Shown here: positions 1-37,460 of the stretch, one piece after another
How the letters are laid out: each line of letters starts with the position of its first letter
Numbering within the stretch: the stretch's first letter is position 1
DNA from: Dromiciops gliroides
Lineage: Eukaryota > Chordata > Mammalia > Microbiotheria > Microbiotheriidae
DNA: 64,000 bases
Reading direction: 5' to 3'
Assembly (NCBI RefSeq): GCF_019393635.1
Contig: NC_057867.1
Location: 67,955,492 to 68,019,491 of the forward strand
Position numbers and translations under genes: made by a program
The notes under the pieces: model-generated
The model's input: the letters and a program-made list of their open reading frames with translations, nothing else
Told to the model about the DNA's origin: nothing
Database searches by the model: none

Positions 1-31
1 CCCCATTTTCCTTTCTCCTGTCCTTTGAGCT

Positions 32-116
32 CTAGGTGCCCAATTGTGTAGAGGTAAGAAATATGCTGTATTCTTGATTGGTATATTTCTTGCCTCTACC
101 AACTGAGCATCTTGGA
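32..116 (+). ncRNA. Hairpin H1, subfamily A pre-miRNA-like
   Basis: The 5' arm GTGCCCAATTGTGTAGAGG pairs with 3' arm CCTCTACCAACTGAGCATC; the upper stem AAGAAATATGC/GTATATTTCTT is almost perfect. The 3' arm change CTACCAACTG keeps pairing with CAATTGTGTAG, so the fold is intact. First unit in the window; the array probably continues to the left. Confidence 0.7.
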
Positions 117-436
117 CTTTGCTGCTGTCAGGAGGGAGTGGGGTCCCCACACGTGATCCCATCTACACGCTGCAGGCCACCAAGAGGTTAAGTGTCTAGC
201 CTCAGGTTACAGAGTGACTGACTGTGTGTCTGGCTGTCTGAGGCAGAACAGAGTATCAAAGAGTATGCACCTCCTAGGATCCTTTAGTGGTGGGATGTCT
301 ATGGAGACAATAATAACCAAGATCAGAGCATAACAGTCTGGAGGAAAGGATGCTAGAACATAGAACTTGGACTTCTGAATAGGAAGTATAAATGTCTGAA
401 GGAACCTTGGTGATCTGAGTGAGAAACGTGAGGCAA

Positions 437-612
437 GGGGGCAGCTAGGTGGCGCAGTGGATAGAGCACCGGCCCTGGATTCAGGAGGACCTAAGTTCAA
501 ATCCAGCCTCAGACACTTGACACTAGCTGTGTGACCCTGGGCAAGTCACTTAACCCTCATTGCCCCACCAAAAAAAAAAAAAAGAAGAAGAAGAAGAAGA
601 ACAAAAAAAGAA
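437..612 (+). mobile_element. Marsupial CORE-type SINE with A/GAA tail
   Basis: Full-length copy from GGGGGCAGCTAGGTGGCGCA through the conserved CTGTGTGACCCTGGGCAAG to an A-rich then GAA-repeat tail. Inserted in a spacer between hairpins H1 and H2. Confidence 0.9.
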
Positions 613-778
613 ACGCAGGGCAAGGACCGCAGGTCCTTAGGATGCCCTTGATGCTGACAAATGGCCTGAGGCTTGGGAACATTAACACTGGGGGTACCCT
701 GCCAATGGCCACCATCACTCTGAAGGTTGTGTTTCTGTTTATGTCATTGTACTTTTCTTTAACCCTCTTATTTGGCTT

Positions 779-864
779 CCAGTTGCCCACCTGTGTAGAG
801 GCAGGGAAATATGCCGTGTTTTCTCTTTCGGTAAATCCTTGCTTCTCACAGATGAGCATCGAGG
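779..864 (+). ncRNA. Hairpin H2, subfamily A
   Basis: 5' arm TTGCCCACCTGTGTAGAGG and 3' arm CTTCTCACAGATGAGCATCG; the CACCTGTG/CACAGATG stretch remains paired although both arms differ from the consensus. Loop TGCCGTGTTTTCTCTTTC. Confidence 0.7.
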
Positions 865-1206
865 ATTCATCTACTCTCCCTGCCTAAAAATGTTGTAAGG
901 TCCCTAGTCATGAACCCAGCCATACCCTGCATTCCACCCAGAAGTCAGGTTATTCTGACACATCAGAAACGAGTAGAGTCTAGAGGGAGACATGCCAGAC
1001 TGTTGAAGATGGGCTTCACAGGAAGGAAACTTGACACTAGATCTTATGGAGGGTACTGAGGAGGGGCCACGGTCTTCCTTAGGCTGCTGGGATTTGGTCT
1101 CAGGCCATCACTGGCCACCCTCAGTCTGAAGACAGGATTTCTGATCCTGTCATTGCGTTTAGCTTTTCTCTTTTCCCTCCTTTTTCTTTCTTTGATCCTC
1201 TAACCT

Positions 1207-2679: not shown

Positions 2680-3231
2680 TCTCCCTTCTGTCAGGAGGGA
2701 GTGGGTCCCCAGACTATGTTCTATGCCACCGGGAAGTTTCCAGCCCAGGGTCACACCATAACTCTGTGTCTATTTGGGGCAGGACATGTAGCCAGTTTCC
2801 CATCTGCTGAAGCTTGTGGACTTTCTTAAAGGCCATGAATTAGAAGATAGTATGTTAGACCATGAGAATGCAAGGTTTCAGGCCACACCTCTGAACGCTT
2901 TGGGATGTCAAATCAGTTAGAGTTCTTTGGTGCATAATAACAGATGAGAAAAGGGCGCGTTCTGGACAGATGGATGCTAGTAGGGGAAGTGAAATTTCAT
3001 AGCAATTGCATGAAAGAACCTTAGTTCTAGGTTTGAGTGAGGATTCTTGGGGCAGGGGCCACAGGTCTCCCCTTGGAGGTCCTTAATGTGGGTCCCTGGC
3101 TCCAAGCTGTGAAGCAGTGTACTCTGACCACTGGGTCCTCTCAGTCCAGGGACAGGATTCCCAGTCCTAGTATTGGGGATGGCTTCCCCTTGTTCTTCTT
3201 CTTTCTCTTATTCTTTGACCTCTAGGTGCCT

Positions 3232-3306
3232 AACTATGGAGAGGACAGAAGGATGCCAAGTTCCCTCTCTCAGTAACTTTCTTGCTTCCCACGATCGGAC
3301 ATCGAG
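3232..3306 (+). ncRNA. Hairpin H7, subfamily A, short and degraded
   Basis: CTAGGTGCCTAACTATGGAG aligns with the 5' arm and CTTGCTTCCCACGATCGGAC with the 3' arm. Several mismatches in the middle of the stem make processing doubtful. Confidence 0.4.
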
Positions 3307-3628
3307 GACTCTGTGTGGGGCCTCCAGACCTGAGTCCGCCTACACCCAGAGGTGAAATGTCAAGATCACACATTGTCTATGTGTCTTTCTGAGGCAAGAA
3401 CTGGTTCCTCCGTTTTCGATGCATTGTGAAATCCTGTCTTTCTGAAGGTATGTGCTGCTAGAATAGAACACCTGAGAATGTTGGGTTCCTTTAGCCCTGG
3501 ACTGTCATGGTCTGTGAAACTGCATGACCAGGCTCCTCCATCCACTGGACACCATCATTCTGGAGGTAGTATTTCTGATCCGATTACTAATCTTGGGTCA
3601 CCTTTTCCTTCCTCTAGTTGTTTAACCT

Positions 3629-3709
3629 CCAGGTGCCTGACAGGGCAGAGTTAGGAAAAATACTGTCTTCTTTTGGATGATTTCTTGCCTCTCTCTGTTG
3701 TGCATCTGG
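3629..3709 (+). ncRNA. Hairpin H8, subfamily A, variant
   Basis: 5' arm CCAGGTGCCTGACAGGGCAG and 3' arm CCTCTCTCTGTTGTGCATCT: CTGACAGGG faces CTCTGTTG, so the 3' change partly compensates for the 5' change. The stem is plausible but weaker than consensus. Confidence 0.5.
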
Positions 3710-4184
3710 GACTCTGGGACTGTCCCCTGCTGTAGGAGAGGATGTGGTAACACAGTAACCCTGGCTCTGTCTGAGGCAGGCCTTGAAGCCATGGTTTCCC
3801 ATCCAGGGAGGCCTGAGGTATTTCTGAAGGAGTGTTAGAAGATGGAATGTTATATTGGGAGAACACAGAGTTCAGACAAGAGGTACCTCCTATCACACCA
3901 TAGTCTTCAGTTTATGTCCTTTAAGTCCTGGAATGTCATTGTCTGAAGAGACATAATAACAGAGATCAGGGAATATTAGATTCTAGAAGGAGCAATTTTA
4001 GGAGATGGAACATAAGTCCAAATGTCTAATAAACCCCTGGTGTTAGATAGATATGCATGGAGAGCCCAAGGAGGAACCACAAGTCTCCTTTAGGAGATCT
4101 GTAATGCTCATTACCAGCCTCGGGCTGTGCAACAACACTAGGGGTAGCCCTGTCACTGGCTGCCATCAGTCCAAAGGCAAGATT

Positions 4185-4513: not shown

Positions 4514-4744
4514 CTGGGGTCTGGCTGCTGTGCATTCTGTAGCTTCTTGGAGCCACAGGTGAGAGTTGGGGGACAGGCGGACACCAAATTTGAATGAGAA
4601 GCCTTGAAAAGAGTTCAGCGAGCCCTCCCACAAGAGGTGCTAGGCCTTCCTGAACACCCCATAATCCCCGAGGCAAGATCACTGGCATTACTGGACATAG
4701 GGTTCTACCTTTGACTCCTTTTTCTTTCTCCTGTTCTTTGACCT

Positions 4745-4828
4745 CCAGGTGCCCGACTGTGTAGAGGCGAGAAAATTACTGTGTCCTGTGTTGGTAAATT
4801 TCTTGCCTTTCACAATTGAGCATCTAGG
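4745..4828 (+). ncRNA. Hairpin H9, subfamily A
   Basis: CCAGGTGCCCGACTGTGTAG with TTTCACAATTGAGCATCTAG; upper stem GAGAAAATTACTG with TTGGTAAATTTCTTGCC. First of four very similar units (H9-H12) sharing the CACAATTGAGC or CACAGTTGAGC 3' arm and a TGTGTTGG loop. Confidence 0.75.
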
Positions 4829-5451
4829 ACTCTGCTACTGTCCCTGGGCATGGGCTTAGGCGTGCTTCACACCACACACACATTCTCTTCCTCTCACTGT
4901 CTAACTTTTTTGTTAGTGTCTTTGAGAGTCAAACTGGACCATTTAAGAAGTTAATTTAGTAGTTTAGGGTCACACAGTGACCCTGAGTCTGTCAGAAGCA
5001 GATCTTGAAGCTAGGGTTTCCCATCTAGGGAGGCCTATGACCTTTGGTCTGAAGGAGCGTTAGAAAATAGAATGTTAGATTGTGAGAATACAGTGTCAGA
5101 TGAGGAGCATCTTAGATCACTTCGTAATGTTCAGTCTGATAGGGTCTTTTAAGTTCTGGAATGTCATTGTCTGGTGAGACAAAATAACAGAGTAGAGTAT
5201 ATTGGAGTGTACATGGAGGGATGCTAGAACTTGGAATGTGCCTTATAGTAAGTACAAATGTCTGAAGGAATCCTGGTGCTAGATCAGCATGGTGAGACTA
5301 GGGCAGGAACCACACATTTCCCTGAGGAGGTCTTTGATGTTCATTATCAGCTGTGCAACAGCAACACTAGGGGTAGCCCCGGCACTGGACCCCTTATTGG
5401 ACATGGGGTTCTACCTTTGTCCACTTTTTCTTTTTTCCCTTTCTTGGACCT

Positions 5452-5535
5452 CCAGGTGCCCCACTGTGTAGAGGTGAGAAAGATGCCATGTTATGTGTTG
5501 GTAAATTTCTTGCCTTTCACAATTGAGCATCTTGG
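5452..5535 (+). ncRNA. Hairpin H10, subfamily A
   Basis: CCAGGTGCCCCACTGTGTAG with TTTCACAATTGAGCATCTTG. Member of the local H9-H12 tandem expansion. Confidence 0.72.
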
Positions 5536-5618
5536 ACTCTGCTCCTGTCCCCCTGCTGAAGGAGGGAATATGGACCCTAGACTTGGGCCTTGGGCCTAAG
5601 TGTGTGCCCCGCATCCCC

Positions 5619-5806: not shown

Positions 5807-5890
5807 CCAGGTGCCCGACTGTGTAGAGGTGAGAAAATTACTGTGTTGTGTGTTGGTAAATTTCTTGCCTTTCACAATTGAGCATCTTGG
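5807..5890 (+). ncRNA. Hairpin H11, subfamily A
   Basis: CCAGGTGCCCGACTGTGTAG with TTTCACAATTGAGCATCTTG. Unit start to unit start with H12 is 288 bp and the two whole units are almost identical, so this is a young tandem duplication. Confidence 0.77.
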
Positions 5891-6094
5891 ACTCTGCTCC
5901 TGTCCCCCTGCTGCAGGAGGGAATATGGACTCTAGGCTTGGGCCTAAGTGCACTCCCTCCCCACCCACACACACATTCTCCTTCTCTCCTGTTCCTTGTT
6001 AGTGTCTTTGAGAGTCAACTGGACCATTTGAGAAGTTAACTAGTGCATGGGGTTCCACATTTGTGCCCTTTTTCTTTTTCCTGTTCTTTTACCT

Positions 6095-6178
6095 CCAGGT
6101 GCCTGACTGTGTAGAGGTGAGAAAATTACTGTGTTATGTGTTGGTAAATTTCTTGCCTTTCACAGTTGAGCATCTTGG
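6095..6178 (+). ncRNA. Hairpin H12, subfamily A
   Basis: CCAGGTGCCTGACTGTGTAG with TTTCACAGTTGAGCATCTTG. Differs from H11 at a few bases; all stem changes preserve pairing or wobble. Confidence 0.77.
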
Positions 6179-6744
6179 ACTCTGCTACTGTCCCCTAGCT
6201 CCAGAGGGATTAGGGAACATAGGTCTATGTCTAGATGCTCCATCAACACACATGTACACCTTGTCCCCTTGGTTGTGTCTTTGAAAGTGAACTGGACTGT
6301 TTGAGACATAAATTAATACAAGGTCACACAGTGATTGTGTCTGTGACAGAATTTGGAGACTAGGTTTCCAATGCAGTGAGGAATATGATCGTTCTGAAGT
6401 AGCATTAGAATCTAGACCATGAGATCAGTGTAAGGCAGGAAGCATCTTTGAATATCTTAAAACATTAGATCTCATTAGTGTCCTTTATGCTTGAAATGTC
6501 ATTGTCTGAAGAGATGCAATAAGGAATCTGTAGGGATGCTAGAACTTGGAACTTGGGCCAGGGCTTGAAGGAACTTGCCCATTGGTCTTCCTCAGGAGGC
6601 CTTGATGCTGGTTAGGGGCTGAGCCAGTGGATGTGCAAGAGCAACAATCAGGGTACCCTCATTGTCAGTCTGGAGGCAGGATTTCTGGCCTCATCATTGG
6701 CCATTGGTTTCTTCCTTTTCTTCATTTTTCCTCTCTATTAACCT

Positions 6745-6834
6745 CCAGGTGCCCAACTGTGTAGAGACAAGAAAAATGCCGTGTTCTCTCTCTCTCTCGG
6801 TAAATTGCTTGCCTCTCACAATTGAGCACCTAGG
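6745..6834 (+). ncRNA. Hairpin H13, subfamily A
   Basis: CCAGGTGCCCAACTGTGTAG with CCTCTCACAATTGAGCACCT. The 5' CAACTG change is on the wobble position and becomes A-T with CAATTG. The loop is slightly lengthened by a CT run. Confidence 0.72.
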
Positions 6835-7262
6835 GTACTACGACTGTCCCTCGTCAGGAGAGAGTGGAGTCCCTAGACCTGAGCCCACCTTCCCCCTGCA
6901 TGTCACCAAGAGGTTATGTTTCTAGTGCAGGGAAGTGAGGGATTTCATGTCTCCTGAGACATCCGGTCTTTCTGAAAGAGCACTAGGACGTAAGAACACA
7001 AGCACCAGAGAGGAGGGAGGCAGCTTAGAAAATACTAGAATATTACAATGTCATTGTCTAAGAAGACACAATAACAGATCAAAGAACATCAGAGTCTGGA
7101 ATGAGGGATGCCACAACATGGAATTTGGACTTGGAATCATGGCAGATTTCTGAAGCAGCCCTGGGGCTAGATCACTGGCCACCAGCAGTCTGCAGGCAGC
7201 CTTTCTTGGCTGGCTCATTGCTAAACTTGGGCCTTCTGGTCTTCTCCATTTTCCTCCGACCT

Positions 7263-7346
7263 CCAGGTGCCCAAATGTGCAGCAACAGGAAAGGTGCCGT
7301 GTCTTATCTGGGTAAATTTCTTGCCGCTCACAATTGGGTAGCTAGG
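7263..7346 (+). ncRNA. Hairpin H14, subfamily A, variant
   Basis: CCAGGTGCCCAAATGTGCAG with CGCTCACAATTGGGTAGCTA. The 5' arm has TGTGCAGCAACAGG in place of TGTGTAGAGGCAGG; the middle of the stem is weakened. Probably a decaying copy. Confidence 0.45.
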
Positions 7347-7409
7347 CCTCTACTGCTGTTCCCTGTCTAGGAGAGAGTAAGGATCTTAGGGGTAAGTGTA
7401 GGTACACTG

Positions 7410-8077: not shown

Positions 8078-8218
8078 CCAGGTGCTCGATTATGTGGAGG
8101 TAAGGAATGCTATGTTTTATTTCTATTGCGCGCGCTCTCATGCTCTCGCTCTCTCTCTCCCCGTCTCTCTCGTGTGCGCTCACGGTAAATCCTTGTCTCT
8201 CACAGTTGAGCATCTAGG
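8078..8218 (+). ncRNA. Hairpin H15, subfamily A with greatly enlarged loop
   Basis: 5' arm CCAGGTGCTCGATTATGTGG and 3' arm TGTCTCTCACAGTTGAGCAT still pair, but the loop has grown from about 12 to about 70 nt through a CT/CG-rich microsatellite (8,128-8,183). The hairpin is 141 nt instead of 84, so Drosha could still measure the base but the terminal loop is unlike its siblings. Confidence 0.55.
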
Positions 8219-8755
8219 ATTGTACTGCTCTTCCCTGCATTAGGAGGGACCTGAGCCCACCCTGCATGCCACCAAGACATTAGGTTTCTATCCTATGGTT
8301 GATCACATGTGACTCTTATCCCTATGTGAGTCAGGCCTTGAAGTTGAAATAGAGGTTTCCCCTTCACTGAGTCACATTGTCTTTCTGAAGGAGCATTAGA
8401 CCATGGGTTGTTAAATCATGAAAAGAGAGCATTAGACAGGAAGCACACATGGAAACAGATTGGAGATTATCAGAGTCTGGAGGGACAGATGCAGGAACAT
8501 GGGATTTGAAAAGCTTCAACCACGTATATGTCTGAAGGAAAGCTGGTGCTCTTTCTGAATGGGGGTGTCCAGGGCACAGGGTGTTACACAGGTCTTCCTC
8601 AGGAGGACCTTGATGCTGGTTAGTGTCCTCAAGCTAAGAAACATCAGTACAAGGATACTGCCCTCACTGACCATGAACCATCTGACAATATTCTTGGTCC
8701 TGTCACTGAGCTTGGGCTTCCTTCTCTTCTCCCTTCTTCTCTTATTCTTTGAACT

Positions 8756-8839
8756 CTGGGTGCTTAGTTGTGTAGAGGCAGGAAATTTACTGTATTCTCT
8801 CTTGGTAAATTTCTTGTCTCTCACAACTGAGCATCTACG
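8756..8839 (+). ncRNA. Hairpin H16, subfamily A
   Basis: CTGGGTGCTTAGTTGTGTAG with GTCTCTCACAACTGAGCATC: both arms changed together at the centre (TTAGTTGTG/CACAACTGAG), a clean compensatory pair relative to the GACTGTG/CACAGTTG consensus. Confidence 0.72.
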
Positions 8840-9497
8840 ACGTTGTTGCTGTCTCCTGCCCACCTTAGGGGTGAGCCTGGGTGTGGCACCCTATCCCCAC
8901 CCTCAGTGACATCCACGTGTGCGTACCCACAGGTAGGCACTCAAATGCCTTCCCCTTCTGTGTTGGTATTTTTAAAGGTAATTTACTAGCGCAGGGTTAT
9001 ACACTGGCTAAATGTCTGTCTGAGGTGGGCCTTGAGACCAGGGTTTGCCATCCAGGGAGGCCTCTAGTCTTTCTGAAGAAACATTAGAAGAGAGAATGTT
9101 ATACCATGAAAACACACAATGTCAGGAGGCCCCATTGGGATACCTTAGAATCTTAGATCTGTTATAGCCCCTTAATCCTAGAATGCCATTGTCCCAGGCA
9201 ACATAATAACAGAGACTAGACAATTATCAGAGTCTGGAGGGGAGGGGTGGTAGAACACACGATCTGTAATGGAAGTACATTTCTGCAGGAACCCCGGTGC
9301 TACATCTGAGTGGAGCATCCAAAGAGCCACAGGTGTGTTCCTCAGGAGGCCCTTGATGCTGAGAGGAGGTGGGGTACAAGCCCCACACTGGGGGTACTGT
9401 CAGTGTAGATTGCTGGTCTCTCCATTGGATTTCACTTTACCCTTTTTCATTTCTCCTTTTTTGTTTGTTTTTTGTTTGATTTTGGGGTTTTTTTCTT

Positions 9498-9583
9498 CCA
9501 GTTGCCCGACTGTGTAGAGGTAGGGAAATATGCCGTGTTTTCTCTCCAGGTAAATCCTGACCTCTCACAGTTGAGCATCTAGG
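9498..9583 (+). ncRNA. Hairpin H17, subfamily A
   Basis: CCAGTTGCCCGACTGTGTAG with CCTCTCACAGTTGAGCATCT; consensus-like stem. Preceded by a T-rich stretch in place of the usual polypyrimidine leader. Confidence 0.75.
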
Positions 9584-10156
9584 ACTCTGCGACTGTCCCC
9601 TGTGTCAGGAGGGAGTAGGGCCCCTAGACCTGAACCTTCCTATGCCCTGCAGGACACAAGAAGCTTGTTTCTAGTGCAGTGACTTTATAGCTGTCTGAGG
9701 CCAGCCTTGAAGCCAGGGCTGCCCATCAGTGGAGGCCCATGGTCTTTGTGAAAGAACGTTAGAAGATGGAATGTTAGATTGGGAGAACAAAGTGTCAGAG
9801 AGGAGGCATCTTAGGACTTGTAAGAAAGTTCCATCCAAAAGCCCTAGGATGTCATCGGCTGAAGAGACATAGTGACATGTTAGAGAATATAAGAGCCTGG
9901 AGGGGAGGGATGGTAGAACATGGACCTGCGCCAAATAGTAAGTGCAAGTGTCTGAAGGAACTCTGGCATGGGGTCTGAGTGGCATGTCCCTGAGAGGACC
10001 CATGGGCCTTCCTTTGGAGGTCCTTGGTGTGAGTTAGTGGCCTTAGGATAGGCCACAGCAGCACTGCACTCACCCCCATCACTGACCACTGTCTGGAAGC
10101 AGGATCTTTGGGACCATCAATGGACCTCGCTTTCCTCTTTTTCTTGTCCTTTACCT

Positions 10157-10240
10157 CCAGGTGCCCGACTGTGTAGAGGCATGAAAGGTGCTGTATTCTC
10201 TCTCAGTAAATTTCTTGCCTCTCTCCGCTGAGCATCTAGG
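10157..10240 (+). ncRNA. Hairpin H18, subfamily A
   Basis: CCAGGTGCCCGACTGTGTAG with GCCTCTCTCCGCTGAGCATC. The 3' arm CTCCGCTGAG pairs less well with GACTGTG than the consensus does. Confidence 0.6.
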
Positions 10241-10309
10241 ACTTAGCTACTGTCCCCTGCATCAGGAGGGAGCAGGGACCCTAGGCCTTAAACCTAGTTA
10301 TACCCCACA

Positions 10310-10846: not shown

Positions 10847-10930
10847 CCAGGTGCCTGGCTGTGTAGAAGCAGGAACATATGCCGTATTTTCTCTTGGTAA
10901 ATCCTTGCTTCTCACAGTTGAGCATCTAGG
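10847..10930 (+). ncRNA. Hairpin H19, subfamily A
   Basis: CCAGGTGCCTGGCTGTGTAG with CTTCTCACAGTTGAGCATCT; strong stem with AGAAGCAGGAAC facing ATCCTTGCTTCT, where both arms carry matched A-T in place of G-C. Confidence 0.72.
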
Positions 10931-25745: not shown

Positions 25746-25855
25746 GCTGAGTCCAGGTAGGTGGCAAGGATCTTCTGAACATGGGGCTGAGCCTCAGAAG
25801 TGATCTTAACTGGCGCAGCAGTGACAGCGCTTTTCATTTCATCTGGAATTTGGCC

Positions 25856-26327: not shown

Positions 26328-26413
26328 CCGGGTGCCCAGCAGCGTAGAGATGGATAACATGCTGTGCTCTTACTCAAGTAATTTATCCTATCTCACGCCG
26401 TTGAGTGTCTGGG
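26328..26413 (+). ncRNA. Hairpin H39, subfamily D
   Basis: CCGGGTGCCCAGCAGCGTAG with CTCACGCCGTTGAGTGTCTG; stem as in H31 and H42. Confidence 0.75.
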
Positions 26414-26559
26414 ACTCCTTACAGTGGAGGAAATGAATACCACTGGCCTAAGTGCACCTGTATCCTGTATACACGTTTTTGGCACTGGCTCATTCAGACG
26501 GTACGTAATTCACCCATGGTCAAACAATGAGTGGCCATGTGGCTGACTGAGCTGGGACT

Positions 26560-27165: not shown

Positions 27166-27550
27166 CAACGTGATCCAGGTACCGTTCTGAGAGCTTTCCA
27201 AAGATTACTGTGTTTGAGCATTTCCACTAAGGCATGTGATCTCTAAGCCCGGAGGGAGCTTCGGACACAGAATGGGGCAGTGAAAGGGGCCTTTCCTGGT
27301 ACACCGATGATGGCAGAAAAGATTTTAGAATGAGGAACTTGGGACTGTGGCAGTTGCACATCTGAAGGAACCTTGGAGCTAGATCTGAGGGAGGTGTCAG
27401 AGACAGAGATTCTCCTGAGGAGGCCCTTGATGCTCACTAGGGGCCTCCAGCTGTGCAGAATCAGCCTTGGTTTATGCCACCCATGGGGACTCTGTCTGGA
27501 GAATTAGGTTGCCCCTGCTCTCCCATTTCCCTCCTCAGGCACTTTGCTTT

Positions 27551-27634
27551 CCAGATGCCTGGCAGTGTAGAGGGTGGTGAGGATGCTGTACTCTCTTGAG
27601 TATCTCACCTTTCTCTGGCTGTCCGGCGTCTAGG
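27551..27634 (+). ncRNA. Hairpin H40, subfamily C
   Basis: CCAGATGCCTGGCAGTGTAG with TCTGGCTGTCCGGCGTCTAG; sequence as H35. Confidence 0.75.
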
Positions 27635-27971
27635 ACTCCGCTTCGCCCCCAGCCTGAGGAGGAAACAGGAACCCTAGGCCTTAGTGCCCCTGCAGCTGCA
27701 CACCTCCCTTGCCCCCTGGTTGCAAGTGAAAGTTGTACAGAGTGTCCTGGGTCACTCCTAGATCAAAGGGTGCTTGGCCAGTCACACAGTTAGTAGGACT
27801 TAAAAGGCCACAGCTGGAAAGAAGAGGCCTCAGAACATGGACAAGGGACAGAAGCTGGGAGGAGGGACTTTGAAGTAAAGAGTAGAAGTGGGAAGTACCA
27901 TGAAAACATGAAAAATAGTCAGAATTCCTCAGATCAGCATGAGTCCAAAGAGCCTGGTGCCAGAGGAGAAG

Positions 27972-28735
27972 AGAAACTTGGAACATGCATGTGAGAGTGT
28001 CAGAGCCAAGGAGGGAGGGACCTCAGTAAGAGGGACCCAGAGGGATCTCAGATCAGAGAACAGGCTTAGAAGGACAGAGTCTGAGCTGGGAGGCCTAAGA
28101 ACTTGGATTGGGCAGAGCAGAAATGAGGGCCACAGCTCAGGATGCAGGCCCTTCAAGCCTAGAATGGAGCATGCCAGGGGGGCTGGAAGCCTAGACCAGA
28201 GCACACAGGGTGTCAGAGCTGCCGAGGTGAGGCCTGGGAACATGGGCCCTGGAGGCTCAGAGCCAGAAGGGGCCCTAGAAGATGGACCCTGGGAAGCAGC
28301 AGGGGAAGATTCGTTTGAGCATTGGAGGGAAGGCTCCCAGGACGTGGAGCCCGGGGAAGGCCCAAGCACTTGTCAGAAAGAATGGTGGACAGAGACTTTC
28401 TGGGGAGGTTAGGTCAGAGGCCAAGGCTCTTCCTGGGCTCCCTCATCCTCTTTGGTGCCTCAGGCTGAGCAGTCCTCCCAGCACTGAGAACCCTCTGTTT
28501 GGAGACAAGACTTCCTGTCCCATCAGCAGACTTAACCTTTCAGCCTGCAGTTTCTCCTCCAGGTGCCCCACTGTGTAGAGGAGTGAGGGTACCGTGCACT
28601 ATTCGATAACCTTTCCTACTCTCACAGTGGAGCATCTTGGACTCTTCTCCTGGACCCAGGCTGAGGGTGGACCCTGGGTCTGAGCCCACCTGGACGCCGC
28701 AGTGCCCCCCCCGCCCCCCGCCACGTTGCTGTGAG
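27972..28735 (+). repeat. Segmental duplicate, copy 1 (contains H41)
   Basis: Nearly identical to 36,128-36,873 over about 750 bp, covering spacer and a subfamily B hairpin. A small indel early in the block and a C-run before the end are the main differences. Confidence 0.9.
28559..28640 (+). ncRNA. Hairpin H41, subfamily B
   Basis: CCAGGTGCCCCACTGTGTAG with CACAGTGGAGCATCTTGG; same hairpin as H30 and H49. Confidence 0.78.
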
Positions 28736-28868
28736 TTAGTCAGTGGGATAGGAAAACTTGGAAAATGTTTGAAATGTTACAGCTGATACTTTCATTTAAC
28801 CTTGGAATGGCATTTGCAGAAGGGGCAAAGTAGCAATGTCTAGAAGGCAGATGCTTTCCCTTTTGACC

Positions 28869-28955
28869 TCTGGGTGCCCAGCAGCGTAGAGATGGATAAC
28901 ATGCTGTGCTCTTACTCAAGTAATTTATCCTATCTCACGCCGTTGAGTGTCTGGG
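28869..28955 (+). ncRNA. Hairpin H42, subfamily D
   Basis: TCTGGGTGCCCAGCAGCGTA with CTCACGCCGTTGAGTGTCTG. It follows H41 by 310 bp, whereas the homologous pair H30-H31 is 448 bp apart because of the L1 tail insertion there. Confidence 0.75.
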
Positions 28956-29043
28956 AAGGACATCAGAACCAGGGGACCCAGAATTCTGGAGGTAGGAGGG
29001 ACCTTAGAACCAAGCAACCCAGAGTGCTAGAGGTGGGAGGGCC

Positions 29044-29127
29044 CTAGGTTCTGGAAATATAGAGGCTGGAAAAATGCAGTGTTTTCCTGCAGGTAATCTG
29101 GCAGCCTCTCACAGTTGAGCATCTAGG
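29044..29127 (+). ncRNA. Hairpin H43, A-like, 5' arm shifted
   Basis: The 3' arm CCTCTCACAGTTGAGCATCT is consensus A. The 5' arm CTAGGTTCTGGAAATATAGA has drifted, so pairing is good only at the base and in the AGAGGCTGG/GGCAGCCTCT upper part. Confidence 0.5.
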
Positions 29128-29552
29128 ATCCTGCTGCTGTTGTCTGCCTCAGGAGGGAATATCAAGCTGGCGCCTCTTTCTGACCGGGCCCTGACAGCAG
29201 GTTGGACAAAGTGACAGAAAGCTGAATGAAACACTTGTCATCACAAAGTGGCTGTGTTTGTCAGAAGCATGGCTTAAGCCAGCTTCTCCTATGCACTTAA
29301 GTATACTGTCTCTTTGAAGGAACATGAGGACATAAAAAGGTAGACCCTTAGAACATACTGTGTGAGACAGGAGGGAACGTCGAACACAGTGTTATAGCTA
29401 ATAGGGCTCTTTAGTCTTGGAAGGGAGGGGGACTAGAACACAGAACTGGACATTGTAGCAGTTACCTGTCTTAAGGAACCCTGGGGCTACAGCTGAGTGG
29501 AGTGTCTGGGTTGAGGCCAGGGATCTTCCTTGGCAGGCCCTTGATGGTAGCT

Positions 29553-29580
29553 GGGGGGGCAGGGGTGGGGGTGGGGGCTC
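29553..29580 (+). promoter_or_regulatory. G-quadruplex-like tract upstream of H44
   Basis: Same G-run pattern as at 11,309 and 33,115; about 130 bp before the hairpin. Confidence 0.5.
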
Positions 29581-29709
29581 CAGCTTGGCAGAGTCAGGGT
29601 TAGGGTCACCGTACCCCTGGCCCCTCTTGGTCTGGAGAGAGCCTCTTGTCCCATTCTTGGTCTCGCGTTCCCCCTGCCCTTCCGTTTCCCTCCTCTGGTG
29701 CTTTCTCCT

Positions 29710-29793
29710 CCAGGCGTCAGGCAGTGTAGAGACCGGTGAGGATGCTGTGATCTAACAAGTAATTCACCCTTCTCTCACTAACTGGCACCTTGG
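29710..29793 (+). ncRNA. Hairpin H44, subfamily C'
   Basis: CCAGGCGTCAGGCAGTGTAG with CTCTCACTAACTGGCACCTT; differs from H20 at one loop base (GTGATC for GTGCTC) and is identical to H48. Confidence 0.74.
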
Positions 29794-30095
29794 GCTCTTC
29801 ATCGACCATGGCCTGAGGAGGGAGCAGGAACCCCAGGCCTTAGCTCCCCTGGCCCCTGGCTGTAAGTGATAGTCATGGAGTCTAGTGGCGTTCGGTGGTA
29901 GGACTTAAGGGAAGGGGTAGCTGACTCCAAGTTTGGGTCTCTGTGTACTAGGCAGTGCTGGCCTTAGAACAGGATTTTGGTGGAACAAAAGGTGCCTGAG
30001 TGAGACGAGGCCTTAGAACAGACAAGGTCAGAGCTGGAGGGGAGGCTAGAACAAGGCGTCATTGAGTTGCAAAGGCTTTGCACAAAGAAAGATGG

Positions 30096-31329
30096 TATAC
30101 TACCTGGGAAGAACCTTAGAACACAAGCATCAGAGTCTGGAAGAAAAAAGAGTAGAACAAGAAATGAAGGGTGTCAGAGAGAAGTCAACTGAAAACACGG
30201 GTCAGGGTAGAAAAGTAACTTAGAATGTTAAAGAAGGTAGGAGGGAGCTTGGAACAAAGGGTGAAAGGGACAAAGTGCAAAGGTGAGGTGCAAGGCAGGA
30301 AAGCTTAGCTCACAGAGCATGGATTGTGAGTCTCACAGCTGAGAGTGCAGGTCCAGGTGCTAGAGGTAGGCTTTTAGATGATAGAACATAGAGTGTCTGA
30401 ACTAGAAGAACTTAATGCTTGAACATGGAACTTGGTATCACTCTGGAAGGAGGGAAGCTAAAGCATGAAATCTGGGTATGTCCCAAGTCAATGTTTAAAC
30501 AAATCCAGGAGCTAGATCTGAGTGGAGAGTGAGTCGGGAGTCCAGGATGGGGTCAGGGTCCTGGGGCCTCCCATGGTCACACAGTGTGTGTCTAAAGGCA
30601 GGATGCCTATGGGCAATGCCAGTGGGTCCCAAAGCCAAGTCTTGAATGACTGTGTTGTGTGCTACCTTAGACAGGGAACTGTAGAGTATACAGTGCGATA
30701 CAGAATCGGGAAGACCCTTGGAGTCTAGAGTGTCACAAGCTGAAGGAACCTCAGAGCACTGAATGTCAGACCTGGGAAGGCCTCAGAATACAGAACATGA
30801 GAGTCTGGGAGACTACATTGTGAGTCCCAGCAGGAACCGTAGACTAGAGTATGGAATGTTAGTGCCAGGGGAGGGAAAGTAAGGAGTGGTAGAACATGGA
30901 GTGTCACAGCTGGGACTGGGGAACCTGAGAATCCTAGAACCCAGATTGTTTGCTCTCAAAGAGTGGGCGAAACTTGAGACCATCTGACAGAGTATCTGAG
31001 CCCAGAGTGAGACTCATTAGAAATAACCATGCAGAGGATGGCAACCAGAAGAAGGCTTCTTAGCCCTAAAAGCACTGAATGCTAGAATCAGAAGGCAAGG
31101 AGGGCCATGATCCTAGAACGTGAGGATGGGGTCAGCCCATGGCTCAAGAAGCCCTGAGTGGAGGGTTCTGTTCAGGGGTCTGGTGCCCTCGGGCTGAGTG
31201 GTGGCAGCAGCCCCAAGGTCGCCCAGTCGCTGGCAGCCTTCTTTTTGGTGGTGGGATGACGTACCCTATGGTGCCACTGAAGTTTTCTCCCTGAATTCTC
31301 AGGTCCTTCGTTCCTCCAGATTTTCTCCT
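30096..31329. repeat. Array spacer, no hairpin
   Basis: About 1.2 kb of spacer-type sequence (TAGAACATAGAGTGTC, GGGGTCAGGGTCCTGGGG, CACACAGTGTGTGTCTAAAG). A truncated unit boundary is near 30,540-30,600 but no hairpin is seen there. Confidence 0.5.
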
Positions 31330-31413
31330 CCGGATGCCCCACTGTGTGGAGGGGGATGAGTATGCCGTGCAATGTTGGGTAACCTTCCCTTCTCTCACAG
31401 TGGAGCATTTTGG
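31330..31413 (+). ncRNA. Hairpin H45, subfamily B
   Basis: CCGGATGCCCCACTGTGTGG with CTCACAGTGGAGCATTTTGG; GGGGGATGAGTATGCC faces GGGTAACCTTCCCTTC. Confidence 0.7.
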
Positions 31414-31846
31414 ACCCCTCTACTGGACCCAGCCTGAAGAGAGACCCTGGGCCTCGGCACACTTGGACTCCTCGCCACATTGCTGTAAGTTCTAGTCTTT
31501 GAGGGATGCTTGGGCCAATGAGGAGTTAAATGACTTCCCATGTTAGACAGATGTCAAAGGCAGGACTTAAAGCCATGTCAGTTGGACTCCAAGGTCAAGT
31601 CTCTGTTTGCCAGCATAGACAAAGAAGTCAGACATGGACGATAGCATATCACATGTCAGGGCGGGAAGGGCCTTGGAATAGGAAACGTGAGTCTGTGGGG
31701 ATTTAAGGCCACAGAATAGAGTGTGGGAGCCAGGAGGACCATCAGGCCATAGCACAGGAAATGGTAGTGCTTGGAACAAGGGCCTTGGAGTAGAAAGCAG
31801 AGAGCGTCAGCAACTCAAAGGAATGCTTGCTCTCCTCCTGTGACTT

Positions 31847-31930
31847 CCTGGTATCCAATGGTGTGAGGTGGGGGAAGAAACTGGGATTTCTTTCAGGCTC
31901 GTTCTTGCCTCTCACAGTGGAGCACCTAGG
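31847..31930 (+). ncRNA. Hairpin H46, A/B intermediate
   Basis: CCTGGTATCCAATGGTGTGA with CTCTCACAGTGGAGCACCTA; GGTGGGGGAAGAAAC faces GGCTCGTTCTTGCCTC. The fold holds with several wobble pairs. Confidence 0.6.
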
Positions 31931-32097
31931 CTTCTGGTACTATCTCCCACTGAGTCTGGACCTTGGACCCCAGATTTGGATCCTGCGTAGCAGCCTAGCC
32001 CTTGGCAAGGGAGACTTGGGAGAGTCAATGGCCCCAACCAATCTTTATGTGACTAATGGATTGTCACAGAGTGATTATGTCCAAGGGACCTCAGATT

Positions 32098-32124
32098 GTG
32101 CAGCAGCAACAGCAGCAGCAGCAC
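32098..32124 (+). repeat. Short CAG/CAA repeat
   Basis: GTGCAGCAGCAACAGCAGCA then CAG repeats, in the spacer position equivalent to 20,808-20,835 before H33. Confidence 0.8.
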
Positions 32125-32220
32125 TGGCATCATGGTCAGGAGGCAGAATTCCCTGGGCCGGCACCACACCTTGATTTTCTACCTGCCCATTGGAATTCCT
32201 CTATCCTCACCCTTTCTCCT

Positions 32221-32302
32221 CCAGATGCCCTGCCGTGTGGAAGGGTGAGGGTACCGTGTATTACCAGGTAACCCTCCCTTCTTTCACAGTGGAACATCTA
32301 GG
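32221..32302 (+). ncRNA. Hairpin H47, subfamily B
   Basis: CCAGATGCCCTGCCGTGTGG with CTTTCACAGTGGAACATCTA; AAGGGTGAGGGTACC faces GGTAACCCTCCCTTC, a perfect upper stem. Confidence 0.68.
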
Positions 32303-33114
32303 AAGCTTCTACCAGCCCCAACCTGAAGAAGGACCCTGGACCTTAGCACACCTGGACACCGCCTGGGGCCTCCCACATCACTGTAAGTTACAATCTTTGA
32401 GAGTTGCCTGGGTCACACTAACCAGAGTCAGAGAGACTTCAAAACATGTGCAAGGAACATCAGGGGGTAGTAAGCTCGCCATGCAAATGGCCCTTGGAAT
32501 TTAGAGTGTCACTGCCAGAAGAAATCAACACACCTAATGGCAGATACACAATAGAGACTGCTAGAGCTAGAAGAGAACTGAGGACATAGTACAAGGTAGG
32601 TGAGTGCTGGGAGGGAGTTGGCAGCCAAAAGCACCTGTAGTACTCCCCAGTTTAAATGGAATTGGGAAATGTTTAATTCAAGTAAAATAAAATACGACAT
32701 AGATAATGGTCATTTGTGGTTTTCTAAGTTAATACGCTGGTTTTGATGTCACCACTGCCTTAGGCTATGAAGCAGAATGTTAGAACCCAAAGGAATGCTG
32801 GAATGATGAGTATCACAGCTGAGAGTGAGGAACCTTAGAACCCAACAACACAGTGTTGCTGGGAAGTGCTTTATAACAGATAACATGGTGACTCAGACTG
32901 CCTGAGCAGGGAATGAGAAGCTTTACAGAAAAGAGTACAGAGGACCTTAGGACAGACATCAAGTTCAGAATGTGAAGATCTGAAGGAAGGGATGCTAGAA
33001 GATGGAACTGGACATTGTAGCAGCTACCTGTCTTAAGGAACCCTGGGGCTACAGCTGAGTGGAGTGTCTGGGTTGAGGCCAGGGATCTTCCTTGGCAGGC
33101 CCTTGATGGTAGCT

Positions 33115-33142
33115 GGGGGGGCAGGGGTGGGGGTGGGGGCTC
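33115..33142 (+). promoter_or_regulatory. G-quadruplex-like tract upstream of H48
   Basis: Third copy of the G-run pattern preceding C' hairpins. Confidence 0.5.
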
Positions 33143-33271
33143 CAGCTTGGCAGAGTCAGGGTTAGGGTCACCGTACCCCTGGCCCCTCTTGGTCTGGAGA
33201 GAGCCTCTTGTCCCATTCTTGGTCTCGCGTTCCCCCTGCCCTTCCGTTTTCCTCCTCTGGTGCTTTCTCCT

Positions 33272-33355
33272 CCAGGCGTCAGGCAGTGTAGAGACCGGTG
33301 AGGATGCTGTGATCTAACAAGTAATTCACCCTTCTCTCACTAACTGGCACCTTGG
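33272..33355 (+). ncRNA. Hairpin H48, subfamily C'
   Basis: CCAGGCGTCAGGCAGTGTAG with CTCTCACTAACTGGCACCTT; identical to H44. Confidence 0.74.
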
Positions 33356-33768
33356 GCTCTTCATCGACCATGGCCTGAGGAGGGAGCAGGAACCCCAGGC
33401 CTTAGCTCCCCTGGCCCCTGGCTGTAAGTGATAGTCATGGAGTCTAGTGGCGTTCGGTGGTAGGACTTAAGGGAAGGGGTAGCTGACTCCAAGTTTGGGT
33501 CTCTGTGTACTAGGCAGTGCTGGCCTTAGAACAGGATTTTGGTGGAACAAAAGGTGCCTGAGTGAGATGAGGCCTTAGAACAGACAAGGTCAGAGCTGGA
33601 GGGGAGGCTAGAACAAGGCATCATTGAGTTGCAAAGGCTTTGCACAAAGAAAGGTGGTAGAACATAGGGAAAACCCAGGTTTTCTGGCTGGGGAACAGGA
33701 ACCGTAGGAACATGAACCACGAGAGACAGTGTTTAAAGGAGGAACGCTGCAATACAGAAAACAGGTTC

Positions 33769-33924
33769 TGGGGCATTGAGGTGGTGCAGTGGACAGAGAA
33801 GTGGCCCTGGAGTTGGGAGGACCGGAGTTCAAATCCAGCCTCAGACACTTGTCACTGTGACCCTTGGCAAGTCACTTAACCCTGATCTCTTCTCAAAAAA
33901 CAAACAAAACAAAACCAAACCCAA
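33769..33924 (+). mobile_element. Marsupial CORE-type SINE, diverged
   Basis: GGGGCATTGAGGTGGTGCAG through GGCAAGTCACTTAACCCTGA to an AAAC-type tail. ACAGAAAACAGGTTCTG and ACAGAAAACGGATTCTG flank it as an imperfect target duplication. Confidence 0.85.
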
Positions 33925-34129
33925 CAGAAAACGGATTCTGAGCTAGGAGGGTATAGAGTCTGCAGAATCCATTTCACAGCTAGAATAGTAGGAATTAGCA
34001 TCCCAACTAAGGAGGCACAACACCGAGCTTGTCAGATCTCCACATGAGGCATTAGAGCCAAGGGCGTAAGCTTCCCAAGGGTGGGGAGCATAGGGGGGAG
34101 GAAGGTTAGAATGTAAAAAGGCTCCGATT

Positions 34130-34290
34130 TCCTTTTTTTTGGTGAGGCAATTGGGGTTAAGTGACTTGCCTATGGTCACACAGCCAGTAAGTGTCAAGGA
34201 CTCAGACGAGTCCGGATTTGAACTCAGGTCCTCCCGAATCCAGGGCCAGTGCTCTATCCACTGCGCCACCTAGCTGCCCCCCCCCCCCCC
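34130..34290 (-). mobile_element. Marsupial CORE-type SINE, minus strand
   Basis: T tract, GGTGAGGCAATTGGGGTTAA, to CACCTAGCTGCCCC and a long C run. The flank CCGATTTC recurs on both sides. Confidence 0.88.
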
Positions 34291-34559
34291 GATTTCTTAG
34301 CAATGGGTTTTAGTGCAAAAAACACAATGTCAGAGCAAAAAAGTAATTGTGTCTGTCCATCTCACCAAGCTGGCAGACTCTCTCTCTTCCCCTTTGTGGC
34401 TAAAACTGAGAAGACCATTCTCCCTCCCTTTCCTTTCCTCTCACTCTCAACTTGACACTACATTCTGGAGTCTGTCATTCGACCGAAACTCCCTTCTCCA
34501 AAGCCCCCAGTGAGAACCTAATCACCCAATCAAAAGTTCGGTCCCTCTCGACCTCTCTG

Positions 34560-36118
34560 TAGCCTTAGACGTTTTGTTCCCCTCTTCTGCTGGACTCTCT
34601 CTTCTTGAAGTTTCCAGGACACTGTTCTTGTACCTGTCTGTCCACTCCTTCTCAGTCCCCTGTGCTGGATCCTTGCCAGGCCCCGCCTGTTAATGGGGAA
34701 TATCCCCCAGGCTTTGATCCTAGGCCTTTAATCCCTCTAGACTTGATCTGATCATCTCTTGTGACTTCACTGATCATTTCTAGGCTGACTCTCAGATCTC
34801 TGTGACTCGTCCCAGTCTCCTAACCTCCAACCCTGCCAAGTCCAGCTGCCTTTTGGATGTATCAAATTGGATGTCCCAAAGCGAACTCATTCTCTTTCCC
34901 TCTCTGCCTCTTCTGCCCAGATCTGTAATGGTCAGGGGACACCTCTACCCTCTCAGTCATCCAGGCTCTCAAGCTGTGTGTCACCCTTGACTCTCCTCTC
35001 TCACCCCTCACATTCAATCGTTTGCCAAGTTCTGTCAATTTCACCTTCATAAAGTTTCTCATCTCCACCCCTTTGTCTCCTCAGGCATTGCTACCACCTT
35101 GGTGCCCCCTCACTCCTAGCCTATTGCTGTAGCCTTGTGGCTGGTCTCCTGGCTACAAGCTTCTCCCCACTCCAGTTCATCTTCCATTCTTCACCTGTCA
35201 AATGAATGTTCCTAAATTGCAGATATGATCATTTGATGCTCCACCCTTCCTCCCCCCAATTCAGTAAACTCCACTAGCTCCCTGTGTAAGGGGCTAAAAT
35301 TCTAGCTATACTATCTGAAATCTAATGAGTGGTCGCCAATAAATTATAAGCTTTAGCAAGAGTTTAGACTTTTAAACATTTATTAAGGAGAATAAGAATT
35401 TGGTAAAGAGAGAGAGACCTAGATTCATCTATCTATCTCGGGGAGCTACAGTTCTGCTCCACTCTCCACAAGATTCCTGGCGAAAAAGAGCCAGAGCGTC
35501 AGCCTCACCCTCTCTTCCTCCCACAAGCAAACGTCACTTCCTGATGCCAAAGAAAAGCCACATGGCCTTGCCCTCAGAGGCCTTCTCCTCATGGTGGAGC
35601 TTTCCTACAGTAAGTCTCCAGCAGTTGGCGTCATTCCAATTGTTACACCTGTCAATTAAGATCAATTAAGAAATGTGTGAGATACTCGGGAGTTGTTCAC
35701 CTTATGGTCCCCTCTTCTCTTGTTAGTCTTCTTCCATCTTCTTCCTTCCTTGTACTTCATGATCCAGTGACACCAGCCTCCTTGCTCTGCCTCCTACAAG
35801 TTCCTCTGTATCTGAACCCTGTTCATTTGCACTCGCTATCCCTCACTGCTGGAGGTCTCTCCCTTCTCATCTCTGTCTCTTGGCTTCTTGCAGTTCCCTC
35901 TTGTATGAGAAGCATCTCACGATGCCCCAGAATGCTAGGCCATTCCCATCATTGATTAGCTCCACTTTAACCTGGATGTATCTTGAGTGTCTGGAGTTGT
36001 TTGCATGTTGTTTCCCCCATTAGCTTCTCAAGGGCAAGACAGTTTTTGGTCGTCTTTGTACCTCTTAAGTATGCTGAGCAAAGTGCTAGGCATATAGTAG
36101 GTGCTTAATAAATGTGTA
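34560..36118 (+). mobile_element. L2/CR1-type LINE 3' region, interrupted
   Basis: Blocks typical of marsupial L2/CR1-type 3' ends appear in order: GGATGTCCCAAAGCGAACTC, CTCCAGTTCATCTTCCATTC, TTCATGATCCAGTGACACCA, GTTTGCATGTTGTTTCCCCC and the tail AGTAGGTGCTTAATAAATG. The element is split by the LTR-like segment at about 35,300-35,700. Confidence 0.7.
35300..35700 (-). mobile_element. Probable solo LTR (endogenous retrovirus fossil)
   Basis: About 400 bp that interrupts the L2/CR1-type sequence. Read on the minus strand it has LTR-like composition, with an AATAAA signal near the expected place. No internal retroviral sequence adjoins it. Family is uncertain; it is younger than the old LINE it lies in. 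Boundaries are approximate. Confidence 0.4.
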
Positions 36119-36127
36119 TTGGCTGCC

Positions 36128-36873
36128 CAAATGAATAACTTGGAATGTGCATGTGAGAGTGTCAGAGCCAAGGAGGGACCTCAGAGGGATCTCAGATCAG
36201 AGAACAGGCTTAGAAGGACAGAGTCTGAGCTGGGAGGCCTAAGAACTTGGATTGGGCAGAGCAGAAATGAGGGCCACAGCTCAGGATGCAGGCCCTTCAA
36301 GCCTAGAATGGAGCATGCCAGGGGGGCTGGAAGCCTAGACCAGAGCACACAGGGTGTCAGAGCTGCCGAGGTGAGGCCTGGGAACATGGGCCCTGGAGGC
36401 TCAGAGCCAGAAGGGGCCCTAGAAGATGGACCCTGGGAAGCAGCAGGGGAAGATTCGTTTGAGCATTGGAGGGAAGGCTCCCAGGACGTGGAGCCCGGGG
36501 AAGGCCCAAGCACTTGTCAGAAAGAATGGTGGACAGAGACTTTCTGGGGAGGTTAGGTCAGAGGCCAAGGCTCTTCCTGGGCTCCCTCATCCTCTTTGGT
36601 GCCTCAGGCTGAGCAGTCCTCCCAGCACTGAGAACCCTCTGTTTGGAGACAAGACTTCCTGTCCCATCAGCAGACTTAACCTTTCAGCCTGCAGTTTCTC
36701 CTCCAGGTGCCCCACTGTGTAGAGGAGTGAGGGTACCGTGCACTATTCGATAACCTTTCCTACTCTCACAGTGGAGCATCTTGGACTCTTCTCCTGGACC
36801 CAGGCTGAGGGTGGACCCTGGGTCTGAGCCCACCTGGACACCACAGTGCCCCCTGCTATGTTGCTGTGAGTTA
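36128..36873 (+). repeat. Segmental duplicate, copy 2 (contains H49)
   Basis: Near-identical to 27,972-28,735. It begins immediately after the L2-type tail and is the last hairpin-bearing block of the array. Confidence 0.9.
36703..36784 (+). ncRNA. Hairpin H49, subfamily B
   Basis: CCAGGTGCCCCACTGTGTAG with CACAGTGGAGCATCTTGG. Same as H41. The last recognisable hairpin of the array. Confidence 0.78.
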
Positions 36874-37460
36874 CAGTCTTTGACAGTCTTCTGGGGCTTT
36901 GACTCCATGTCAGTGGGACCCCAAGGCCAAATCTCTGTGGTACCATGGCCAAGGCATTTTAAAATGGAGAATGTCTGAGGTGGAAGGGCCTTAGACCACT
37001 AAACATCACAGCCCGAAGGAGCCTAAGAGCATTTAATGTCAGATCTGGGAGGGCCTTGGAGTAAAGAAGGAGAGAGTCTGAGGACATGTGAGGATTCAGA
37101 ATGAACTAGAGAGGCAGAGGCAGAGATCCGAAAAGAGGGCAGCTCAGTGTTGGGAGGGAAGCGCCTTATACCAGGAAGCGGGGAATATTAGAGCTGAAAG
37201 GAATGTTGGGACTGGGAATGAGGGCCCTTAGACCTGGAGAACCCAGCGTGCCTCAGAGTGCCTGGGCTGGGAGGGAACACAGTGAGAGGATCTTAGAATG
37301 TCAGAGTTTGGACCCGGAGAGTTTCTAGATTGTAGCTCTTGACAGTCCAGGACATGGGGGAAGGATCTTCCTTAGGAGGCCCTCATTCTTAGCCATTGAT
37401 TTAGTGTGGCTGAGCCAGGCTGAGGAGGCTCTGGGGCTCTCCTTCTCCTCAGACCTGGCA
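36874..37460. repeat. Terminal array spacer
   Basis: Spacer-type text continues (GGGCCTTAGACCACTAAACA, CTTCCTTAGGAGGCCCTCAT) without a hairpin and fades out near 37,460. This is the right edge of the array. Confidence 0.55.

Follow-up and report, generated by a model that had tools for sequence, protein, structure and literature searches.

C19MC and the rodent Sfmbt2 cluster comprise tens of paralogous microRNA precursors (pre-miRNAs) and grew by duplication. Another family of microRNAs (miRNAs), mir-7398, the subject of this study, is said to originate from Meunier 2013. Here we describe a stretch of 64,000 nt from Dromiciops gliroides (contig NC_057867.1, positions 67,955,492 to 68,019,491 of the forward strand), referred to as the window, which very probably contains, in whole or in greater part, a large cluster of mir-7398-family miRNAs of an Australidelphian marsupial, arranged as an array of hairpins that would be processed from primary miRNA transcripts. 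In the respective papers, mdo-miR-7398f-5p (PMC5486014), mdo-miR-7398l-3p (PMC10544508), and miR-7398j (PMC5121246) are named as miRNAs of the opossum Monodelphis domestica, and the name miR-7398 is used without a species in a passage of PMC8336336. As members have already been published as M. domestica miRNAs, the family is not new and, judged by its sequence, the array represents a known kind of cluster, of which it is a large example.

Several other clustered families invite comparison. Passages of the papers concerned describe X-linked miR-506 as a fast-evolving clustered mammalian miRNA family (PMC11031087), a character that the array appears to share; NOVEL-16 of MirGeneDB 2.1 as a multicopy dasyuromorphian miRNA family with subtle variation, found in the Tasmanian devil and thylacine (PMC10552650); and an X-linked cluster of other miRNAs, the MIR363 group, in the tammar (PMC3576234). 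NOVEL-16 and the array are both multicopy marsupial miRNA families, likened here by description alone, and may or may not be the same. The array may be X-linked and expressed in testis, as the initial annotation conjectured. No description of the array was found in the titles, abstracts, and passages of the open-licence papers searched, and the passages from PMC3277949, PMC4848552, PMC2660371, PMC3059204, and PMC2950125 held nothing on the mir-7398 family.

Family assignment and extent of the array

The array occupies bases 1 to 37460 of the + strand and was delimited using Rfam, a covariance model of its own, and flank homology. This model (R1) was built from 30 aligned copies and used in an unfiltered search of all 64 kb, from which 47 copies of a hairpin of approximately 84 nt were identified. 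They extend from base 33 to base 36,786 and without exception lie on the + strand, as the initial annotation of a one-strand hairpin array had proposed. Against Rfam mir-7398 (RF03378), 26 of the 47 copies, between bases 45 and 36,772 on the + strand, reached the curated score of at least 44 bits (best E value, 7.6e-13), and every one of these matches spans model positions 1 to 60 of 60. That the curated cutoff recovers just 26 of 47 copies is a practical gap. At an E value of ≤5, 40 of the 47 copies were matched and seven were missed; copies beyond the RF03378 cutoff join the family through homologous flanks and the R1 model. Compared with mir-7398 of M. domestica, the array shows the same sequence and structure match over the full 60-position model, whereas it differs in belonging to another marsupial lineage, as indicated by its WSINE1-like short interspersed elements (SINEs), and in having 47 copies within less than 37 kb.

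R1 E values were below 0.01 for 43 of the 47 copies and at most 1.1e-9 for 40. Weak matches among the 47 start at 14678, 15633, and 12355 (E values, 0.015 to 0.61), and the copy at 8079 to 8220 was recovered as two weak pieces, as a loop insertion splits the match, and was counted once. Four other + strand matches, at 24951, 29459, 46108, and 46424 (E values, 1.3 to 3.3), were left uncounted. On the − strand, all matches with an E value of <0.5 lie on + strand copies and have far lower scores, coinciding with them because the hairpins are palindromic; those located off the copies (5330, 8606, 10020, and 57233; E values, 0.73 to 5) are at chance level. The R1 search gave no match with an E value of <1 between 38 and 64 kb. 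Within the R1 bounds the hairpins measure 79 to 91 nt, typically about 84 nt, so the uniform size expected initially holds with the exception of one expanded copy of 142 nt. Copies are separated by 173 to 3431 bp, mostly less than 1.3 kb, and since the first hairpin starts at base 33 the array probably continues beyond the left edge of the window.

An Rfam scan with all families at an E value of ≤5 gave no match near the cutoff to the miR-506 family among the Rfam models; the sole such match was to mir-883, which we take to be a member of the miR-506 group, at 23.7 bits against a cutoff of 85. The array resembles C19MC and the Sfmbt2 cluster in consisting of tens of duplication-grown paralogous pre-miRNAs but differs from them in that, in the same scan, its copies match no other miRNA family near the cutoff. 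With about 47 copies in one orientation, some 35 of them well folded, the array most likely ranks among the larger mammalian miRNA clusters and does not represent a new kind of element.

Folding, covariation, and strand

To be scored as intact, a copy had to form a single stem-loop with at least 24 pairs, a minimum free energy (MFE) of −25 or lower, and a z score of −2 or lower relative to 200 dinucleotide shuffles of that copy. Under this rule 35 of the 47 copies are intact, making the initial count of about 42 somewhat too high. Folding relative to shuffled sequence, the check suggested with that count, gave z scores below −3 for 31 of the 47 copies (median, −3.9), and the + strand folds better than the opposite strand in 40 of the 47. 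A blind fold scan of bases 1 to 37,500 (MFE of −34 or lower, at least 30 pairs) returned 37 + strand hairpins, 28 of them at R1 copies, and 18 on the − strand, 11 of them at copies, compared with three and six hairpins in two block-shuffled control sequences. At a loose cutoff (−25, 24 pairs) there were 143 + strand hairpins versus 88 and 88 in shuffled sequences, and a second loose scan gave 151 versus 80, 91, and 82. The array is thus set apart from shuffled sequence at strict cutoffs only, the loose cutoff separating poorly. Because the excess at the loose cutoff is just 143 versus 88 and 88, folding energy alone is weak evidence, and it is the common sequence of the copies and their covariation that make the case.

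Covariation was examined in an alignment of 30 distinct copies out of the 47. Stem cells were paired in 89.2% of cases, compared with a shuffled mean of 80.2%, and pairing fell to 36 to 49% when the partner was slid by one to three columns. Two-sided changes were found in 17 of the 20 stem pairs (shuffled mean, 7.5), and none of 500 shuffles attained any of five covariation measures. When 42 distinct sequences from 46 aligned copies were considered, the modeled stem contained 143 G-U cells and 36 A-C cells; by stem pair, G-U exceeded A-C in 16 of 20 and A-C exceeded G-U in three. Similarly, in 23 nearest-neighbor pairs drawn from 30 distinct intact copies, there were 60 Watson-Crick/G-U differences and nine Watson-Crick/A-C differences. 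The asymmetry is read here as a mark of RNA transcribed from the + strand, in agreement with the earlier placing of the functional strand by its G-U wobbles, and together with the two-sided changes indicates strong RNA-level selection on that strand.

Comparison of the flanks with the hairpins masked placed 46 of the 47 copies in one family by single linkage. Both flanks were homologous in 45 copy pairs, of which 44 were measured and one was dropped as too near the window edge. Across the 44 pairs, mean identity was 0.852 for the hairpin, 0.723 for the upstream flank, and 0.757 for the downstream flank, with gap shares of 0.035, 0.21, and 0.17, respectively; the hairpin was more alike than the upstream flank in 36 pairs and than the downstream flank in 38. 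The most conserved parts are the stem base, the seed region of the 5' arm (5p), and their partners, with the loop-side half being more variable. The interpretation first proposed, of a marsupial miRNA cluster encoded by the + strand, is supported because the copies match a curated Rfam miRNA family and show covariation at the RNA level.

Predicted processing and competing interpretations

For the analysis of arms, pre-miRNA ends were taken from the Rfam match and the 3' arm (3p) was assumed to be 22 nt. The predicted pre-miRNA core is 53 to 65 nt in 46 copies. Positions 2 to 8 of 5p are exactly GUGUAGA in 25 of the 46, with 18 kinds of 5p seed overall and 24 different kinds of 3p seed, and a U is found at the predicted 3p start in 35. 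Of the motifs associated with Microprocessor, which are optional and not strict requirements, apical UGU and CNNC at 16 to 18 nt were scored, leaving basal UG uncounted. Of 39 distinct copies, 27 have a CNNC located 16 to 18 nt beyond the predicted pre-miRNA end; the counts peak at offset 16 (24 of 39) and offset 19 (28 of 39), compared with a mean of 2.7 at offsets 25 to 60. The loop-side part holds UGU or GUG in 38 of 46 copies, so that the UGU initially described as common in the apical loop is borne out in this loose form, where either triplet counts. Following established miRNA biology, RNA polymerase II would transcribe the + strand into a single long RNA or a few of them, and Drosha-DGCR8 would cut approximately 12 nt above each hairpin base to release pre-miRNAs of approximately 60 nt, their ends being those predicted from the Rfam match. 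Dicer would then release 5p arms that for the most part share the seed GUGUAGA together with 3p arms of varied seeds, and the loaded arm would repress mRNAs.

Several points weigh against such a cluster or against parts of its evidence. The string printed as similar to mdo-miR-7398f-5p, whose reverse complement starts AGUGUAGA, was the one string compared, and it matched the copies at chance level (best, 13/21; window maximum, 17). Kinship among the copies means that the shuffle counts given above are not probabilities, the ratios of 143:36 and 60:9 come from an alignment that had been fitted to the structure, and the G-U excess may owe something to strand-biased mutation. Further CNNC peaks occur at offsets 5, 29, and 26 (33, 16, and 12 of 39, respectively), that at offset 5 falling within the basal stem, and the CNNC enrichment may come partly from shared descent. 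A crude end-stability rule applied to 34 intact copies favored 3p in 22 and 5p in nine, with three ties. Conservation of the 5p seed is no proof that 5p is the guide, because the seed sits in the conserved lower stem; seed-level selection for 5p was dropped as an explanation, as the 3p partner bases are about equally conserved.

The fold rule is failed by 12 of the 47 copies, and four score less than 20 bits, which also speaks for a different origin of the array, as an inverted repeat spread by duplication and mostly unexpressed, being either a fossil miRNA array or a DNA palindrome maintained by correction between its arms. Recent block duplications of 95 to 98% identity would explain some of the identical copies without selection. 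The excess of G-U over A-C (60:9 and 143:36), however, fits RNA from one strand and not arm correction at the DNA level, covariation and conservation of the hairpin above its flanks are unexpected for neutral repeats, and the family has named opossum miRNA members, making this origin very unlikely. Hairpin repeats in one orientation can, as a matter of general knowledge, supply other small-RNA pathways as well, yet the short stems, the fixed core of pre-miRNA size in 46 copies, and the fit to the full length of an Rfam miRNA model render it extremely improbable that the array is a source of endogenous small interfering RNAs or PIWI-interacting RNAs instead of miRNAs.

A pyrimidine-rich leader, noted as common from the outset, precedes most hairpins, as exemplified by bases 4718 to 4748 of the + strand, whose final CAG sits at the base of the hairpin. 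The region from −40 to −13 is at least 70% C+T in 40 of 46 copies, compared with 8.6% of background windows, and an AG is present at the base in 36 of the 46. By a rough acceptor score, the base AG ranks among the best 5% of the window's AG sites in 31 of 46 copies and among the best 1% in 16, and hairpin bases account for 23 of the 60 best + strand acceptor-like sites of the array. These tracts and acceptor-like AGs would be expected if the hairpins were splice-site-overlapping or splicing-assisted miRNAs, each starting where a repeated exon has its 3' splice acceptor, with the spliceosome and Microprocessor sharing the site; donor-like sites of >6 bits in the array are likewise biased, with 15 on the + strand versus four on the − strand. 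Against this, acceptor-like sites of >10 bits are equal on the two strands (four each), + strand donors of >7 bits number just four and lie at varying distances, five of 34 intact hairpins (1787, 8757, 26329, 28871, and 31331) are without the base AG, and no GT is conserved beside the shared unit motif TGCATGTCTGAAGGA. In addition, CAG is also part of the basal stem, and the identity of the leader (0.760) is hardly above that of the flanks (0.723 and 0.757). Work cited in a passage of PMC11347158 found that processing of endogenous splice-overlapping miRNAs left splicing undisturbed, which likewise argues against a shared site. A repeated exon-intron unit, proposed from a GTAAGT beside TGCATGTCTGAAGGA, was rejected as a general feature, as the units do not retain this GT and contain few strong donors. 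Splicing is not claimed because the best acceptors are equally frequent on the other strand, some intact hairpins are AG-less, and there is no recurrent donor, and a splicing-assisted array is quite unlikely. It is also unlikely that the tract and CAG form a selected, donor-free, splice acceptor-like module that recruits U2AF/U2 small nuclear ribonucleoprotein or a pyrimidine tract protein to each hairpin and thereby aids or times Microprocessor cutting over dozens of copies in tandem.

Individual copies, duplications, and surroundings

In the following, each copy of the mir-7398-family array is given with its R1 score in bits, its z score, and, where present, its RF03378 score in bits, in that order; all are on the + strand. 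Intact copies at the left end are those at 33 to 117 (77.9, −8.4, 57.3), 780 to 866 (78.0, −5.2, 64.7), 1208 to 1294 (91.9, −4.4, 66.3), 1787 to 1872 (69.3, −4.2, 40.0), which has no AG at its base, and 2367 to 2453 (91.2, −7.0, 66.1). They are followed by a copy with a degraded 3' base at 2596 to 2682 (51.7, −1.2, 44.9) and a degraded copy at 3223 to 3309 (43.6, −0.1). The next intact copies are 3630 to 3712 (73.5, −3.4), 4746 to 4830 (93.7, the best R1 score, −5.9, 65.0), 5453 to 5537 (90.0, −4.5), 5808 to 5892 (91.8, −5.7), 6096 to 6180 (92.8, −5.7), 6746 to 6836 (84.9, −4.2), in which a CT repeat lengthens the loop and the arms still pair, and 7264 to 7348 (75.0, −3.8). In the expanded copy at 8079 to 8220 (z score, −2.6; RF03378, 35.5 bits at 8091 to 8206), the apical loop is enlarged by a long microsatellite-like insertion rich in CT/CG, and the two arms pair. 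The lowest z score belongs to 8757 to 8841 (82.1, −12.3, 71.6, the best RF03378 score), a copy without AG at the base, and the copy at 9499 to 9585 (87.1, −4.2) has a branched MFE structure and so fails the single-stem rule. Intact copies follow at 10158 to 10242 (89.0, −2.6), 10848 to 10932 (85.8, −4.8), and 11467 to 11551 (73.5, −3.5).

Several decayed or degraded copies are found from 12 to 16 kb: 12355 to 12435 (12.0, E value of 0.61, −2.6), decayed and joined by flank homology; 12682 to 12767 (35.5, −1.0), degraded; and 13433 to 13515 (18.3, +1.5), 14678 to 14762 (17.5, +1.9), and 15633 to 15711 (17.5, +1.1), all decayed, the last having lost part of its 3' arm. Beyond these, intact copies at 16211 to 16293 (67.6, −3.5) and 18108 to 18191 (85.5, −6.1) alternate with degraded ones at 17062 to 17146 (59.5, −1.0) and 18561 to 18642 (42.6, −1.7). 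The intact copies then continue with 19526 to 19608 (78.0, −4.1), 19974 to 20060 (72.5, −5.7), 20278 to 20362 (64.8, −3.2), 20944 to 21028 (80.9, −2.4), 22914 to 22998 (69.8, −5.1), 24056 to 24140 (83.3, −5.1), 25858 to 25943 (71.7, −6.2), whose base AG is shifted and scores poorly, 26329 to 26415 (68.6, −2.8), with no base AG, 27552 to 27636 (69.8, −4.6), 28560 to 28642 (78.0, −4.0), and 28871 to 28957 (64.6, −2.2), again with no base AG. A degraded copy at 29045 to 29129 (48.2, −1.6) precedes intact copies at 29711 to 29795 (72.0, −3.9) and 31331 to 31415 (79.2, −3.7), the latter without base AG. The divergent copy at 31848 to 31932 (35.8, −1.8) is the sole one with no flank homology link, and the array ends with intact copies at 32222 to 32304 (68.6, −3.4), 33273 to 33357 (72.0, −4.5), and 36704 to 36786 (78.0, −4.2). 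The copy starting at 19526 is identical to those at 28560 and 36704, that at 22914 to that at 27552, and that at 29711 to that at 33273.

Self-comparison revealed duplications of differing ages within the array, including a + strand block at 29420 to 30097 that is 98.2% identical to 32982 to 33659 and another at 27975 to 28738 that is 95.6% identical to 36137 to 36873. The array grew by repeated local duplication. In a tree of 42 copies, from which the expanded copy and four decayed copies were left out, 20 copies, none of which lies left of 11.4 kb, were split from 22 others, of which 18 are on the left; support for this division was limited (86/78). The + strand is mostly purine-rich from 14000 to 34000, unlike the left part of the array, with positive GC skew in 10 of ten 2-kb bins and positive AT skew in eight of ten.

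The window holds short CORE-SINEs that, read by eye, consist of a head resembling a tRNA, a CORE portion, and a poly(A) stretch. A 25-base SINE head gave 11 matches with at most three mismatches; four of the WSINE1-like elements lie inside the array (439, 17580, 22372, and 34255). An opossum SINE1 tail piece had no match in the window. Passages of two papers describe WSINE1, a family of Australian marsupials, as an element of such a composition that is abundant in the Tasmanian devil and for which Didelphimorphia gave no evidence (PMC3403934), and as restricted to the branch leading to kangaroo (PMC2910653). The window elements, equated with WSINE1 through these published descriptions, are suggested to be WSINE1-like and thus support a marsupial, probably Australidelphian, origin of the window.

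The window contains 53 open stretches of at least 110 amino acids. A Pfam search of ten of these (one within the array, the other nine at 37,957 or farther right), which covered no low-complexity CT/GA stretches or shorter exons, gave no match at the cutoff; sub-cutoff names for four proteins (E values, 0.014 to 0.16) look like chance, and there is therefore no gene to anchor synteny. The open frame at 26790 to 27146 (118 amino acids), also with no Pfam match at the cutoff, presumably resembles the end of a long interspersed element reverse transcriptase protein. To the right of the array, an inverted repeat of approximately 6.3 kb (48570 to 54880) has outer arms that are 75 to 77% identical and a center that is pyrimidine-rich to approximately 52 kb and then purine-rich (GC skew of +0.91 in 52 to 54 kb); Tandem Repeats Finder returned short pieces only from this region.

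Among marsupials, the array parallels the giant miRNA clusters known from placental mammals. Every stage is represented in it, from recent duplicates that are still identical, through hairpins that have diverged but fold well, to decayed ones. Individual copies would gain and lose function as the array turns over. The WSINE1-like SINEs inside it would be useful for dating the duplications. With its largely constant 5p seed and varied 3p seeds, the question of whether such an array grows for dose or for new targets becomes directly testable. If the acceptor-like module were real, one 5p seed would be supplied in many doses as the 3p seeds diversify.

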